This document shows positions 31,760 through 36,531 of a DNA stretch of 64,000 nt, in pieces. The DNA lies in assembly GCA_028819255.1 (NCBI GenBank), contig JAPPMB010000034.1, forward strand, positions 1-64,000. Reading direction: 5' to 3'. The notes beneath the pieces were generated by a model. It was not told where the DNA came from and did not search any database. It saw only the letters and a list, made by a program, of their open reading frames with translations. The position numbers and the translations under genes were made by a program. Origin of the DNA: Bryobacterales bacterium (GTDB taxonomy: Bacteria > Acidobacteriota > Terriglobia > Bryobacterales > UBA6623). Within the stretch, counting starts at the first letter, position 1. Each line of letters begins with the position of its first letter.

Positions 31760-32761
31760 TCAGAACCCTTGGGCCGCAATTCTGTAGGTTCCCGTCCAAG
31801 TGTCGCCGGGCCGCACCGTGGGGAGTTCCGGATACAGTTTCCTGTGGGCGAGGTTGAACGCGTTCGTGATGCCGGACATCGGCTCGAAACAAAGGAACTG
31901 CTGTCCCTCGCCGCTTGGGGCGTAGACGACCGCGACGGGATAGCCGTCCCCGTACGACACGGTCAGGCGCTCGCCTGCGCCATGAACGCTGAACCGGGCC
32001 CACCCGTCCGAATCCGGGCGCAAGTCACCGAAGACGTGGTCGAGGAACTCGCCGCGGAGCGGCATGTCGGCGGCGCCCGGAAACGTGGCTTTGAGAGGGG
32101 ACTTCGTCCCCGTCGGCGTAAAGCGCTCGTTCAAGTCCCACAGACTGGACGCCGCCAGCTGAACGCTCCAATCGTCGCGCCGGCTGCCGGGCAGTTGGAA
32201 GTATGGATGGAATCCCACAGATACCGGCATCGTCTCCGCGCCCTGATTCCGGATCTCAGTGCGGACCTCCAGGGTTGCGCCCGCCAGCGTGTACGTTATG
32301 TCTATGCGGTGTGCGAACGGGAACTGCGCCATCAGAGCGGGAAACCGACTGAATTCCAAGCGGCTCTTCGCCCAGGCCGAGTCCGGCCCCGATCCGAAGT
32401 CCACGACCTCCCACTCGCCGGCATAGAGCAGCAGCCCATGGATCGGCTGCCCGTCGGGGTCCGACAGGTAGTTGCCGATGGAGCGGTTCAGCTCGTAGCG
32501 CACGCCGTGGGCGTAGAACGCGTGCTCGTCTAGCCGGTTCGCCCACGGAGCGAGAAACGGGTTGCCGCACAGTTCGGGATTGGCCGCAAAGTCGCCGACC
32601 GAGCCGAACGGGAACCAGAACGCGTTCTTGCCGTTGACGATGAACTCGTAGGCGTTGTTGCCGATCTTCGGTGCGATCGACACGACGACATCGTCCGGTC
32701 CGCGCAGGCGGACGATTGCGACATCGTCAGAACTGGTCAGTCTCGCGGAGTAGGTCTGCAC
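31760..32761 (-). CDS. Aldose 1-epimerase (GalM-like)
   Basis: The 333-residue protein starts at GTG. It has the galactose-mutarotase fold signature: NPFLAPWANRL (sugar-binding Asn and Arg), DGQPIHGLL (first His), MPVSVGFHPYFQLP (catalytic His) and FLCFEPMSG (catalytic Glu). It interconverts alpha and beta anomers of hexoses, feeding sugar breakdown. No signal peptide is seen, so it is probably cytoplasmic. It lies 44 nt downstream of the Cys-rich exported protein gene on the same strand, so they could share a transcript. Confidence 0.9.
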   Translation of the reverse strand: MQTYSARLTSSDDVAIVRLRGPDDVVVSIAPKIGNNAYEFIVNGKNAFWFPFGSVGDFAANPELCGNPFLAPWANRLDEHAFYAHGVRYELNRSIGNYLSDPDGQPIHGLLLYAGEWEVVDFGSGPDSAWAKSRLEFSRFPALMAQFPFAHRIDITYTLAGATLEVRTEIRNQGAETMPVSVGFHPYFQLPGSRRDDWSVQLAASSLWDLNERFTPTGTKSPLKATFPGAADMPLRGEFLDHVFGDLRPDSDGWARFSVHGAGERLTVSYGDGYPVAVVYAPSGEGQQFLCFEPMSGITNAFNLAHRKLYPELPTVRPGDTWTGTYRIAAQGF

Positions 32762-32805: not shown

Positions 32806-33210
32806 CTATTCGCCGGGAAGCTCGCGCAGGTCGGTGTCGCCCTGGCAGCACATGCACAGTCCGGGCTCGTGCGTCGTGATGTGACAAATCTCGCAATAGT
32901 AGGTCACGCGATGCAGCTCGCCGTCCTTCACGGTGAAGATCTTCTCCACGACAAGCCGGCCATCCTCCTGGTGTCTGCCGCGCACCTCCCACAGCCGCTC
33001 CGCCAGTTGCGGATCGCGCATGGTGAGCTCAAGGCCCTCGTCCAGTTCCAGCTCCACGGTCCCGCCGCTCGCGAGAGCCAGTCGCAGCGCCTCGCCGACG
33101 ACGGGCGGGACCAGCGTGCCCCGAATCGCCGTGGTGGAAGCCAATGCGGAGACCGCCACCATCAGGGCCCCAGCCACCGCGATTCGCCGAAATGTAATTT
33201 CCGATAACAT
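32806..33210 (-). CDS. Small exported Cys-rich protein, unknown function
   Basis: The 134-residue protein has an N-terminal hydrophobic leader (about residues 9-27: IAVAGALMVAVSALASTTAI). A Glu/Leu-rich middle precedes a tight cysteine cluster: C-E-I-C at about 105 and C-M-C-C about 13 residues later (YCEICHITTHEPGLCMCCQG). Two histidines lie between. The spacing suggests a bound metal, perhaps zinc. I recall similar small proteins in Acidobacteriota without a known role, but cannot check. An AT-rich patch just upstream of the start probably holds the promoter. Confidence 0.7.
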   Translation of the reverse strand: MLSEITFRRIAVAGALMVAVSALASTTAIRGTLVPPVVGEALRLALASGGTVELELDEGLELTMRDPQLAERLWEVRGRHQEDGRLVVEKIFTVKDGELHRVTYYCEICHITTHEPGLCMCCQGDTDLRELPGE

Positions 33211-33361
33211 GGATTATGTAAACTTTTCTGTGCAGGCGTGGCGGAGAGTTGCTATCAGTGTAGGGCATGGGCGGCTCCGGCCTCGTGGAGCGTTGGCCAT
33301 CCGACCCCCGAGCCGAGCAGGCGTCAACGAAGCCGGGTCAACCGGGAGACTGCCCTGAGAA

Positions 33362-33391
33362 TTGACGGGCACAGTTCAAGTTCAATAGAAT
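33362..33391 (+). promoter_or_regulatory. Sigma70-like promoter for the unknown 616-aa protein gene
   Basis: TTGACG at 33362-33367 (5 of 6) is separated by 18 nt from TAGAAT at 33386-33391 (5 of 6). This is one of the best hexamer pairs in the window. It lies inside the most upstream possible frame of the gene, which argues that translation starts downstream of it. The GTG at 33400 would then be almost leaderless. Confidence 0.45.
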
Positions 33392-33399
33392 CACCTACC

Positions 33400-35250
33400 G
33401 TGCGATCGCCATCCGGAGCCGCCTGGAGCCTGAAGGGCTCCGAAGCTCTGGCCGACGTCGGCGCACGACTGCAGCGGAACGCCGACGCGGTCGACCTTTG
33501 GCTATTCGTCGCAGAAATTGGCCGCAACCGTCCGGCGATGCAACCATGTCGCTTCACGATCCGAAAGATTCCCTTTCGGTGGAGGCAGGCATCTGCAGGC
33601 AGGCCGGACGGGCAAGCCGCTCTCACCGAGCGGATCCGCCGCAGGAACCAGCGCCGAGCAATTCGGGAGATCTGGTCGTGGGCGCAATCCTTTGTCCCGG
33701 GCGCGCTTCCCAGATACGGCTGGCAGCGCCGCTGGTTCGAGGATTCGTACGCAAACGCCACTTGTCGTGCCTATTGGAATCGCAGCAAGCTGCTGAGCAC
33801 ATGGTCGTTCCATCTGAGGACCCTCGACGAAAAGCGTCCTCGCGAATCCTGGAATCTCGAAGCAGCCGTCCATCGACAGGTCGGTTCGACGCCAACCCTG
33901 AGTGTTCGAACCTTCTGCGAAACGGCGGAACGCAGGAACGAGGACCGGGACACCCGTCTGGAGCTTCCTTCCTTCATCCGAGCTATCGCGGACCGGACCG
34001 GCCTGCGGATCGGGAATGCCGACATGAGCGCGACGCCAACGGTAGTGCGATCGGATGCCGATGTCCGGGGCCTAGCAGATGGCTTGCTCGACAATGGCCG
34101 CAGACACACCGCGATCGTGTTTCTTTCGCCGGACGGAGACGAGACGTCGCGGTTGCGACCAGGCAGCGTGGCCCGAGGCACGGTAGGACTGGCGAAGGTC
34201 TTCGTCGTCCCGCCCGACGCGGCGCTCTCACTCAGCGCACGTCTCGGCTGCGACATCACCGCCGACGGCTGGGGAGTTCGAGTCTTCAGCCCCGGATTCT
34301 CCGCAAGCGACCGCACGGAGTTTTTTCCCGCGCAGGATCTTTTTGCGGAGCGTCAAGCCCGTAATTCGAGGCGCTGGCTGGAGGCCTTCCTGGCAGCTGA
34401 CAACATCGAGCAGTTTCGATTGGGGACAGACGTGAGGGAGTTCGACATCGGGCAGTTCCGAAGAGCGGAGCGACGTGCGAAGTCCAAGACAGCGCGCCGG
34501 AAGCGTGCCTCGAAGTCCCGTGCTGATCGCGCGGCACCGTCGCCGCCAATCTTGCCGGACACGCAAACTGCACAAGCCCCATGGCTGGAGTTTGTCCGCT
34601 CGATTCCGGGCCGGGTGATGATCGGACGGCGGAAGAAGCAGATGGAGCAGCAGCTTCGGGACAAGGACGCGGAGATCCAACGATACAAGAAGGAACTTTC
34701 CGAGGCCAAGGCGGAGGCCCAGTGGCTGTCCGACGAGCACGACAAGGCTGAGACGGAGGCGAAGCGGCTTCGGGAGCGCCTTGACGGGATCGAGCCGCGG
34801 CTGGAGGAGTATCGCCGCAGGCTTCAGGATCGTGGCGAGAATCCCGATATCCCGCTGCCGGATACATGGGAGAGCTTCTACGAATGGCACCTGGAGCACC
34901 TGACGGACAAGCTTCTCCTGTCGCAGAGAGCCGTCCGCGAAATCAAGAGCACACGATTCAAGGATGTGGAACTCGCGGCAAAGGGCCTGGTCTGGCTGGC
35001 CACAAAGTATCGGAAGTCCCGGATTGGAGGCCGCGGAGAGAACCTGAGAGGAGCTTGCGGCTCGGGGCTGGCAAACCAGCCCTGCGGCGGGGACACATTC
35101 CTATTCAAGTGGGCGGACAAGAGAATCCCCGTCAAATGGCATGTCAAGGGCACTAACACCCGCGATCCGGAACGCTGCCTGCGAATCTACTATTTCTGGG
35201 ATGCCCGGAACCAGCAGGTCGTGGTGGCCTCCATGCCCGGCCATGTGTAG
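33400..35250 (+). CDS. Unknown protein: basic and coiled-coil middle, RelE/ParE-like C-terminal segment
   Basis: I do not recognise this gene as a named family. The chosen GTG gives 616 residues; GTG 33238 and ATG 33538 are alternatives. Residues about 1-250 are mixed alpha/beta and Arg/Trp-rich. About 215-310 have a regular pattern (VVRSDADVRGLADGLLDNGR, KVFVVPPDAALSLSARLG, VRVFSPGF). About 352-385 are very basic, and 411-477 are a charged coiled coil. The last 47 residues (HVKGTNTRDPERCLRIYY, then FWDARNQQVVVASMPGHV) resemble the closing strands of RelE/ParE toxins. No signal peptide, TM helix or antitoxin-like partner is seen. It stands alone, which suggests a defence or toxin-like role (inference). 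Confidence 0.75.
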   Translation: MRSPSGAAWSLKGSEALADVGARLQRNADAVDLWLFVAEIGRNRPAMQPCRFTIRKIPFRWRQASAGRPDGQAALTERIRRRNQRRAIREIWSWAQSFVPGALPRYGWQRRWFEDSYANATCRAYWNRSKLLSTWSFHLRTLDEKRPRESWNLEAAVHRQVGSTPTLSVRTFCETAERRNEDRDTRLELPSFIRAIADRTGLRIGNADMSATPTVVRSDADVRGLADGLLDNGRRHTAIVFLSPDGDETSRLRPGSVARGTVGLAKVFVVPPDAALSLSARLGCDITADGWGVRVFSPGFSASDRTEFFPAQDLFAERQARNSRRWLEAFLAADNIEQFRLGTDVREFDIGQFRRAERRAKSKTARRKRASKSRADRAAPSPPILPDTQTAQAPWLEFVRSIPGRVMIGRRKKQMEQQLRDKDAEIQRYKKELSEAKAEAQWLSDEHDKAETEAKRLRERLDGIEPRLEEYRRRLQDRGENPDIPLPDTWESFYEWHLEHLTDKLLLSQRAVREIKSTRFKDVELAAKGLVWLATKYRKSRIGGRGENLRGACGSGLANQPCGGDTFLFKWADKRIPVKWHVKGTNTRDPERCLRIYYFWDARNQQVVVASMPGHV

Positions 35251-35257
35251 CTCCGCG

Positions 35258-35277
35258 CCCGGCAAAGCATCGCCGGG
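35258..35277. terminator. GC hairpin after the unknown protein gene
   Basis: The arms cccggc (35258-35263) and gccggg (35272-35277) pair around an 8-nt loop, starting 8 nt after the stop. The sequence ttcct follows. It lies between convergent genes and is a reasonable 3'-end hairpin. Confidence 0.4.
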
Positions 35278-35313
35278 TTCCTAGCATCTGGCGAGGAATC
35301 TGCCGGGAGGAGC

Positions 35314-36531
35314 CTACCAGTCGGTGACCGACCCGTCGAAAGCGTCGTACGGCTCGGGGTTCCTCCAGTCGTGGTCGATCTTGTCGGCGATCGCGTCGTC
35401 ATCGAGCTCCACGCCGAGACCCGGCTTCGTGGGCAGATCCACGTAGCCCGCGTCAAAGCGCAGGGGTTCCTTGAAATATCCCTCGCCCAGCGACCTGAAC
35501 TCCTGGCACATGAAGTTCGGAATGGTGGCATCGAGATGGACGCACACCGCCGTCGCAATCGGGCCGAGCGGATTGTGCGGCGCGATAGCCGCATAATACG
35601 ACTCGGCCATGCCCGCGATCAGCCGGGCCTCCATGATGCCCCCACAGTGCGACAGGTCAGGCTGCAGGATTGACGCGGCACCCTTCTCCAGCACCTCCCG
35701 GAAGCCCCACTTCGTGAATACCCTCTCACCGGTCGCGATCGGCAGGTGCGTGCCGCGCGCGATCTCGGCCATGATGTCATGGTTCTGACAGTTCACGGGC
35801 TCCTCGATGAACATCGGCTGATAGGGTTCGAGTGCCTTGATCAGCAGCTTGGCGGTCTGAGGACTGATCGCACCGTGAAAGTCGATCCCGATGTCGACTT
35901 CGTCGCCGCCGGCATCCCGCAGAGCCCGGAAGTGCTCGGCAGCTCGCTCGACGAACGCCTTGCTCTCAACGACGCGCGCCGGACGCTCCTTGAACGGGCC
36001 GACCTTGAATGCGGTGAATCCGCTGGCCATGTCGTCGCGGATCGTGTCCGGGGTCGTGCCGCCCTTGTAGAGCCGCACGCGGTCCCGGGTCGGCCCCCCG
36101 AGCAGTGCGTAGACCGGTACGCCGAACGCCTGTCCCGTGATGTCCCACATCGCCTGCTCCACTCCGCTGAGAGCGCTCGTCAAGACCGGTCCGCCGCGAT
36201 AGAACGAATGGCGATAGATTGCCTGCCAGTGGTGCTGGACGCGCCGCGGGTCCTTCCCGATCAGGTAGGGCGCCATCTCCCGCACGGCTTCGGCACAGGT
36301 CTTTGCCCTTCCCTCGACGATGGGCTCGCCGAGCCCGACGAGGCCGGCATCCGTGTGCATCTTGAGGAACAGCCACCGTGGCTTGACGAGAAATGTCTCG
36401 AGTTTGGTGATCCTCAGCGGCTCGCCGTGCGGAACCGGGGCGGCGGAGGCCGACTGGGCAAGAGCGGCAGACGCAGCGAACCCCGCTGCGGCGCCTTGCA
36501 GGACCGATCGGCGCTTCAGGTCGTCTCCCAT
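35314..36531 (-). CDS. D-galactonate dehydratase-like enolase-superfamily enzyme (exported)
   Basis: The 405-residue protein starts with a twin-arginine-like leader (LKRRSVLQGAAAGFAASAAL). The enzyme closely follows the DgoD/gluconate-dehydratase pattern: IGIDFHGAISP (metal Asp and catalytic His), PMFIEEPV (Glu), IATGERVFTKW (Glu), LQPDLSHCGG (Asp) and AIAPHNPLGPIA (catalytic His). DgoD dehydrates D-galactonate to 2-keto-3-deoxygalactonate. Cytoplasmic DgoD lacks a leader, so export is odd and the substrate may be a related aldonate. It is a lone gene, convergent with the unknown protein gene. Confidence 0.88.
   Translation of the reverse strand: MGDDLKRRSVLQGAAAGFAASAALAQSASAAPVPHGEPLRITKLETFLVKPRWLFLKMHTDAGLVGLGEPIVEGRAKTCAEAVREMAPYLIGKDPRRVQHHWQAIYRHSFYRGGPVLTSALSGVEQAMWDITGQAFGVPVYALLGGPTRDRVRLYKGGTTPDTIRDDMASGFTAFKVGPFKERPARVVESKAFVERAAEHFRALRDAGGDEVDIGIDFHGAISPQTAKLLIKALEPYQPMFIEEPVNCQNHDIMAEIARGTHLPIATGERVFTKWGFREVLEKGAASILQPDLSHCGGIMEARLIAGMAESYYAAIAPHNPLGPIATAVCVHLDATIPNFMCQEFRSLGEGYFKEPLRFDAGYVDLPTKPGLGVELDDDAIADKIDHDWRNPEPYDAFDGSVTDW

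Follow-up and report, generated by a model that had tools for sequence, protein, structure and literature searches.

A HEC-07 family protein with a predicted RelE/YoeB-fold C-terminal module in a Bryobacterales bacterium

The HEC-07 gene and its site

The window analysed here is a 64,000-nucleotide stretch of a contig from a Bryobacterales bacterium. On its forward strand, an open frame ends at position 35250 (Table 1). The mechanical ORF starts at GTG 33238 and encodes 670 amino acids, whereas the first-pass annotation had started at the in-frame GTG 33400 and described a 616-residue protein. The frame itself is real, and the start now judged likeliest from the sequence is ATG 33538, which would give 570 amino acids, GTG 33400 and GTG 33238 being the alternatives. 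ATG 33538 is favoured because homologues carry about 45 residues ahead of the first conserved block and because the codon-position base composition upstream of about 33400 is not coding-like. Residue numbers below refer to a 571-residue frame in which residue 1 is the codon 33535-33537. The gene had also been credited with a sigma70-like promoter of its own and with a terminator-like hairpin. The promoter match, TTGACG-18-TAGAAT, was recovered and scores 10/12 against the consensus, with 0.2 such matches expected. The hairpin directly after the stop has no T run, and a search 3′ of the gene gave no intrinsic terminator.

Table 1. Positions of the HEC-07 gene, its predicted domains and candidate catalytic codons, and its neighbours in the window
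Feature	Position	Strand	Basis
Flanking aldose-1-epimerase-like gene	31760..32761	-	in 11/11 genus genomes
Stretch without counterpart in genus relatives (about 150 bp there)	33224..35313	.	genome comparison
Sigma70-like promoter match TTGACG-18-TAGAAT	33362..33391	+	consensus match only
HEC-07 gene	33538..35250	+	profile match, homologue length, codon-position composition
START-like (helix-grip) domain, model residues 23-140	33601..33954	+	model; VIA-align 6cay_A Z 8.3, 4xhr_A Z 8.1
Thioredoxin-like domain, model residues 145-294	33967..34416	+	model; VIA-align 5xwm_A Z 10.4
Basic linker region RRAERRAKSKTARRKRASKSR	34457..34546	+	sequence, model
Coiled-coil helix, model residues 360-432	34612..34830	+	sequence, model
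C-terminal RelE/YoeB-fold module, model residues 448-571, alpha/beta	34876..35247	+	model, structure search
Invariant His536 codon	35140..35142	+	strand bearing RelE K52/K54 and YafQ H63; putative correspondence
Lys538 codon	35146-35148	+	same strand as His536; putative correspondence
Arg550 codon (R-I-Y-Y)	35182..35184	+	putative position of RelE R61 / YoeB R65; motif and spacing
Invariant His570 codon	35242..35244	+	putative position of YoeB H83 / RelE R81
Flanking enolase-superfamily (mandelate-racemase-like) gene	35314..36531	-	in 11/11 genus genomes

The protein had been called an orphan matching no family. This description has to be abandoned: PADLOC assigned it to HEC-07 (PDLC04161, E 2.9e-96), with a match that covers nearly the full length in two stretches (profile positions 35-333 and 328-549). 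Pfam and NCBIfam models run against the whole protein returned generic coiled-coil noise alone. The gene belongs to a candidate family already catalogued; what is new is the mechanism that we propose for HEC-07. HEC stands for Hma-embedded candidate, the family having been discovered through its embedding in Hma defence loci. Antiviral activity has been stated for several HECs including HEC-06 (PMC12988326, 2026). The papers searched, which did not include bioRxiv preprints, gave no account of HEC-07 or of how it works.

From their sequences, we take the two flanking genes to be an aldose-1-epimerase-like and an enolase-superfamily gene. In ten relatives from the genus, the gap between them is about 600-630 bp on the same contig, as compared to 2.55 kb in the window, and within the genus only the window genome has a HEC-07 gene at this site. 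The simplest reading of this comparison would be that the gene was gained in the window lineage, inserted between the epimerase-like and enolase-like genes. The ends of the insertion in the window showed no repeats of the kind that mark mobile elements. Positions 32806-33210 encode a small protein that has CxxC pairs and looks secreted; it is kept between the two flanking genes. The window copy is surrounded by metabolic genes, with no defence genes adjoining. Elsewhere in the genus genomes, a divergent full-length member (G006) and a short one (G004) are present. Two further genomes, G007 and G008 (loci L015 and L016), have no more of the toxin module than broken or very short fragments, which suggest repeated gain and loss.

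Predicted architecture and the C-terminal module

An AlphaFold2 model of the window protein, built with 59 homologues, reached a mean pLDDT of 82.9. Its front half consists of two predicted domains. VIA-align matched residues 22-156 to START domains (Z 8.1-8.3, 3.5-3.8 Å). The thioredoxin-like domain that follows superimposes on 5xwm_A with an rmsd of 2.7 Å over 103 residues and has no CxxC. The regular alpha/beta middle, the basic stretch and the coiled coil that had been read from the letters are all three present. Whole-protein Foldseek gave nothing below E 1e-3. In profile searches against PDB sequences, the family as a whole drew coiled coils alone, and the C-terminal module drew no meaningful match. 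A fold search in BFVD gave no match, nor did a sequence search of phage records and viral contigs.

The C-terminal module was modelled alone from a homologue, L065, whose module is 50% identical to that of the window and has a complete tail (pLDDT 90.3, pTM 0.87). In a VIA comparison with solved structures, the first 39 rows were all RelE, YoeB, YafQ, ParE or HigB toxins, with the exception of Txp40 (rank 29, Z 5.2). The best match was HP0892, at Z 7.2 and 2.8 Å over 86 of 91 residues, and RelE, YoeB and YafQ scored 6.9, 6.8 and 6.6. Row 40 was an MqsA-MqsR entry, and unrelated rows reached Z 2.6 at most. Taken by itself, a Z of about 7 would be too little to decide the fold; the gap to unrelated rows and the coverage carry most weight. 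Foldseek placed eight RelE or HigB toxins at the top of its list, with weak E-values (best 0.035). These comparisons support the view that the module adopts a BECR/RelE-type fold, as judged on a model predicted for a homologue with 50% identity, the Z of 7.2 being itself moderate. The first-pass annotation had read a RelE/ParE-like end into residues 570-616 and had named a RelE-like fold as a check. The C-terminal module indeed folds, by prediction, like the RelE/YoeB/YafQ toxins; the toxin-type part of the claim stands, and its extent was too small, the module spanning about 120 residues.

Membership of the Pfam BECR sequence families is rejected, since none of these models (RelE, ParE, YoeB, YafQ, HigB and others) matches any of 50 modules. 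An hhalign comparison with E. coli YafQ also failed to match. The kinship with BECR toxins is therefore visible only in structure.

We then considered the residues that could serve catalysis. Across the 50 modules, which come from many phyla, H536 and H570 (positions 110 and 145 of the module) never vary. The VIA alignment with YoeB 2a6r_C ends on the pair formed by module residue 145 (H570) and YoeB residue 83, H83 of YoeB being known to serve catalysis. R550 stands at the start of the penultimate strand, in the motif R-I-Y-Y, to be compared with R-L-V-Y at R61 of RelE and at R65 of YoeB. The spacing from this arginine to the terminal residue is 20 in the window (R550-H570), 20 in RelE (R61-R81) and 18 in YoeB. 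Strand order, motif, spacing and one structural range thus suggest that R550, H570, H536 and K538 occupy RelE/YoeB catalytic positions. For YafQ, residues H50, H63, H87, D67 and F91 have been reported as important (PMC7584586).

The fold alone would also accommodate a ParE-like gyrase poison, or a binder that does not cut RNA, since ParE toxins share it and appear in the VIA list at Z 5-6. Such an activity of the module is, in our estimation, very improbable. The best structural matches are the RNases HP0892, RelE, YoeB and YafQ. Moreover, the RNase residues are absent from ParE gyrase poisons (PMC11980606), while in HEC-07 H536, R550 and H570 range from conserved to invariant, so that an RNase is the better guess for what the module would be.

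Homologues, their neighbourhoods and the state of the window copy

A first contig search with the single protein as query gave no match. In a survey of 396 genomes of the phylum, homologues were found in 8 genomes by sequence and in 23 by the HEC-07 profile, about 14 of them strongly. Weak profile matches confined to profile positions 305-410 were left uncounted, as they are coiled coils of unrelated proteins such as the PilT-like ATPase L044. The patchy distribution foreseen in the first pass is thus borne out. Beyond the phylum survey, 77 named loci were assembled from Proteobacteria, Gemmatimonadota, Acidobacteriota, Verrucomicrobia, Nitrospirae and others.

Defence genes recur next to these homologues. 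HmaA, HmaB or HmaC lies beside the homologue in 8 of the 77 loci (L062, L065, L069, L071-L073, L075 and L103), and some homologues are placed between HmaA and HmaB, with Hma genes on both sides. Type I restriction genes (hsd) adjoin the homologue or lie near it in about nine loci. Both counts are lower bounds because many contigs are short. The expected clustering with defence genes is therefore seen for the homologues. Apart from Hma and type I restriction, a PADLOC scan of the other neighbours yielded little, and Pfam identified Schlafen-AlbA, integrase and relaxase neighbours in single loci. In the alphaproteobacterial loci L100 (10468-11976), L107 and L124, the next downstream gene encodes a Schlafen AlbA_2 protein of about 500 amino acids, possibly a functional partner.

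The genus genomes also carry a relative of the front half. All 11 contain a paralogue of it (L002 1387-2709, on contig C69 of the window's own genome, and L004-L013), and in those read through, the toxin module is replaced by a coiled coil that is short and a tail rich in arginine and glycine. Other genera of the family gave no such paralogue. Its presence throughout the genus would be consistent with HEC-07 being a family for physiological control of RNA or translation, which would merely hitch-hike with Hma and restriction genes. The Gemmatimonadota homologues point the same way, as they lie mostly among ordinary genes in shared neighbourhoods, like the window copy. We nevertheless hold a physiological role to be improbable, in view of the patchy distribution, the lineage insertion, the repeated embedding between HmaA and HmaB, the adjacency to hsd genes and the plasmid copies near integrases.

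We also compared the window copy with its close homologues, a position being called conserved when kept in at least 85% of them. Before residue 300, 15 of 33 conserved positions are changed in the window copy, as compared to 1 in the median homologue, and the changes include His261, which every other member keeps. After residue 300, only 4 of 44 are changed (median homologue 2). The window copy ends in ...SMPGHV and nearly all homologues run on for about six residues of the type RTGAT. As residues after the last His contribute to activity in YafQ-type toxins (PMC7584586), the absence of this tail could impair the window copy. By this analysis, the copy might have reduced activity, respond to a different trigger or be in decay.

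A former defence gene, now decaying or repurposed, would have a drifted sensor half and an RNase crippled by the missing tail. In addition to the two features just described, its third-position GC is 0.73, as compared to 0.79-0.83 in neighbouring genes; the remnants in G007 and G008 and the lack of defence genes next to the window copy fit the same explanation. On the other side, 570 codons remain open, and 40 of the 44 conserved positions after residue 300 are kept, the likely catalytic ones included. Furthermore, a Vicinamibacteraceae homologue (L091) shows comparable drift in its front half with a complete tail. We rate decay or repurposing as unlikely, while giving it some real weight.

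Proposed mechanism and comparison with known systems

A small cognate-antitoxin gene was sought in 33211-33540 and 35250-35314, and these intervals contain no candidate ORF. A type II toxin-antitoxin module was rejected, because no cognate antitoxin gene adjoins the HEC-07 gene. Within the protein, no antitoxin domain was recognised in the front half, which has START-like and thioredoxin-like folds instead. An unrestrained RelE-type RNase would be expected to kill its cell. We therefore propose that restraint acts in cis and that the module is probably held in check by the front half, by the coiled coil or through oligomerisation.

The module is also found on other front halves, in the L059-type, L079/L134, L033 and L003/L121 proteins. 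Loci L059, L061, L063, L076, L079, L134, L033 and L121, from alphaproteobacterial and Acidobacteriota MAGs, all combine a RelE-fold module with differing front halves, a sign of module swapping. Three Comamonadaceae plasmids (L161:7524-9705, L163:7557-9545 and L164:7425-9495) carry a module protein of 300-356 amino acids, with a gene for 345-364 amino acids directly after it. The genes in second place resemble each other weakly (30% for L163 against L164), and the arrangement suggests a two-gene form with a partner. Plasmid-borne copies of the module lie near integrases.

Overall, we favour, with moderate confidence, a horizontally acquired HEC-07 member that acts as a self-restrained RelE-type RNase in abortive phage defence. 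In the uninfected cell, the START-like and thioredoxin-like front half and the coiled coil would keep the RNase module inactive. A signal derived from the phage would alter the front half or the assembly of the coiled coil and thereby free the module. The freed module would cut mRNA, probably on the ribosome, and the infected cell would then cease to produce phage. The toxin or defence role proposed in the first pass thus gains from the fold, the family, the neighbourhoods of the homologues and the lineage-specific insertion; the window copy itself lies outside any defence island, and its activity is presumed.

For the family as a whole, the RelE-type fold joined to a likely sensor front half gives a testable hypothesis in which toxin, restraint and trigger reside in one protein. 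This would account for a toxin without an antitoxin gene, and effector modules are seen swapped among different front halves. HEC-07 might accordingly represent a class of immune effectors that is widespread, works without an antitoxin and consists of a single protein, an extension that we put forward tentatively, at slightly under even chances. In such a class, a RelE/YoeB-fold RNase outside the Pfam BECR families would be under the cis control of a front half that can be exchanged (START and thioredoxin-like, or other unrelated regions), and would occur stand-alone, in Hma or type I restriction loci, or in a two-gene plasmid form.

Several known systems can be set beside this protein. With HEC-07, a single-gene candidate of PADLOC-DB 2.0 (PDLC04158-04161), it has in common that a front half is followed by a coiled coil and then by the C-terminal module. 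The window copy is distinct in having a drifted front half and no C-terminal tail, and it is not embedded in Hma. Genes of the Hma system (helicase, methylase, ATPase; PMC8565338) flank some HEC-07 homologues and are absent around the window copy. As compared to the RelE/YoeB/YafQ mRNA interferases of BECR fold, the module shares the fold and has basic, Arg and terminal His residues at putative catalytic positions. Unlike them, it sits in a large protein, with neither an antitoxin gene nor a Pfam match. It also has a longer loop ahead of the R-I-Y-Y strand and a tail without an aromatic residue, and it lacks the Arg that YafQ carries four residues before its last His. The survey of Gerdes (2025; PMC11980606) left aside multidomain proteins without a recognisable antitoxin. 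HEC-07 shows no recognised antitoxin domain, in contrast to CapRel-type fused toxin-antitoxins (PMC9712102) and to the multidomain or fused BECR toxins of that survey, but like them it unites a toxin-type module and a putative control region in one polypeptide.
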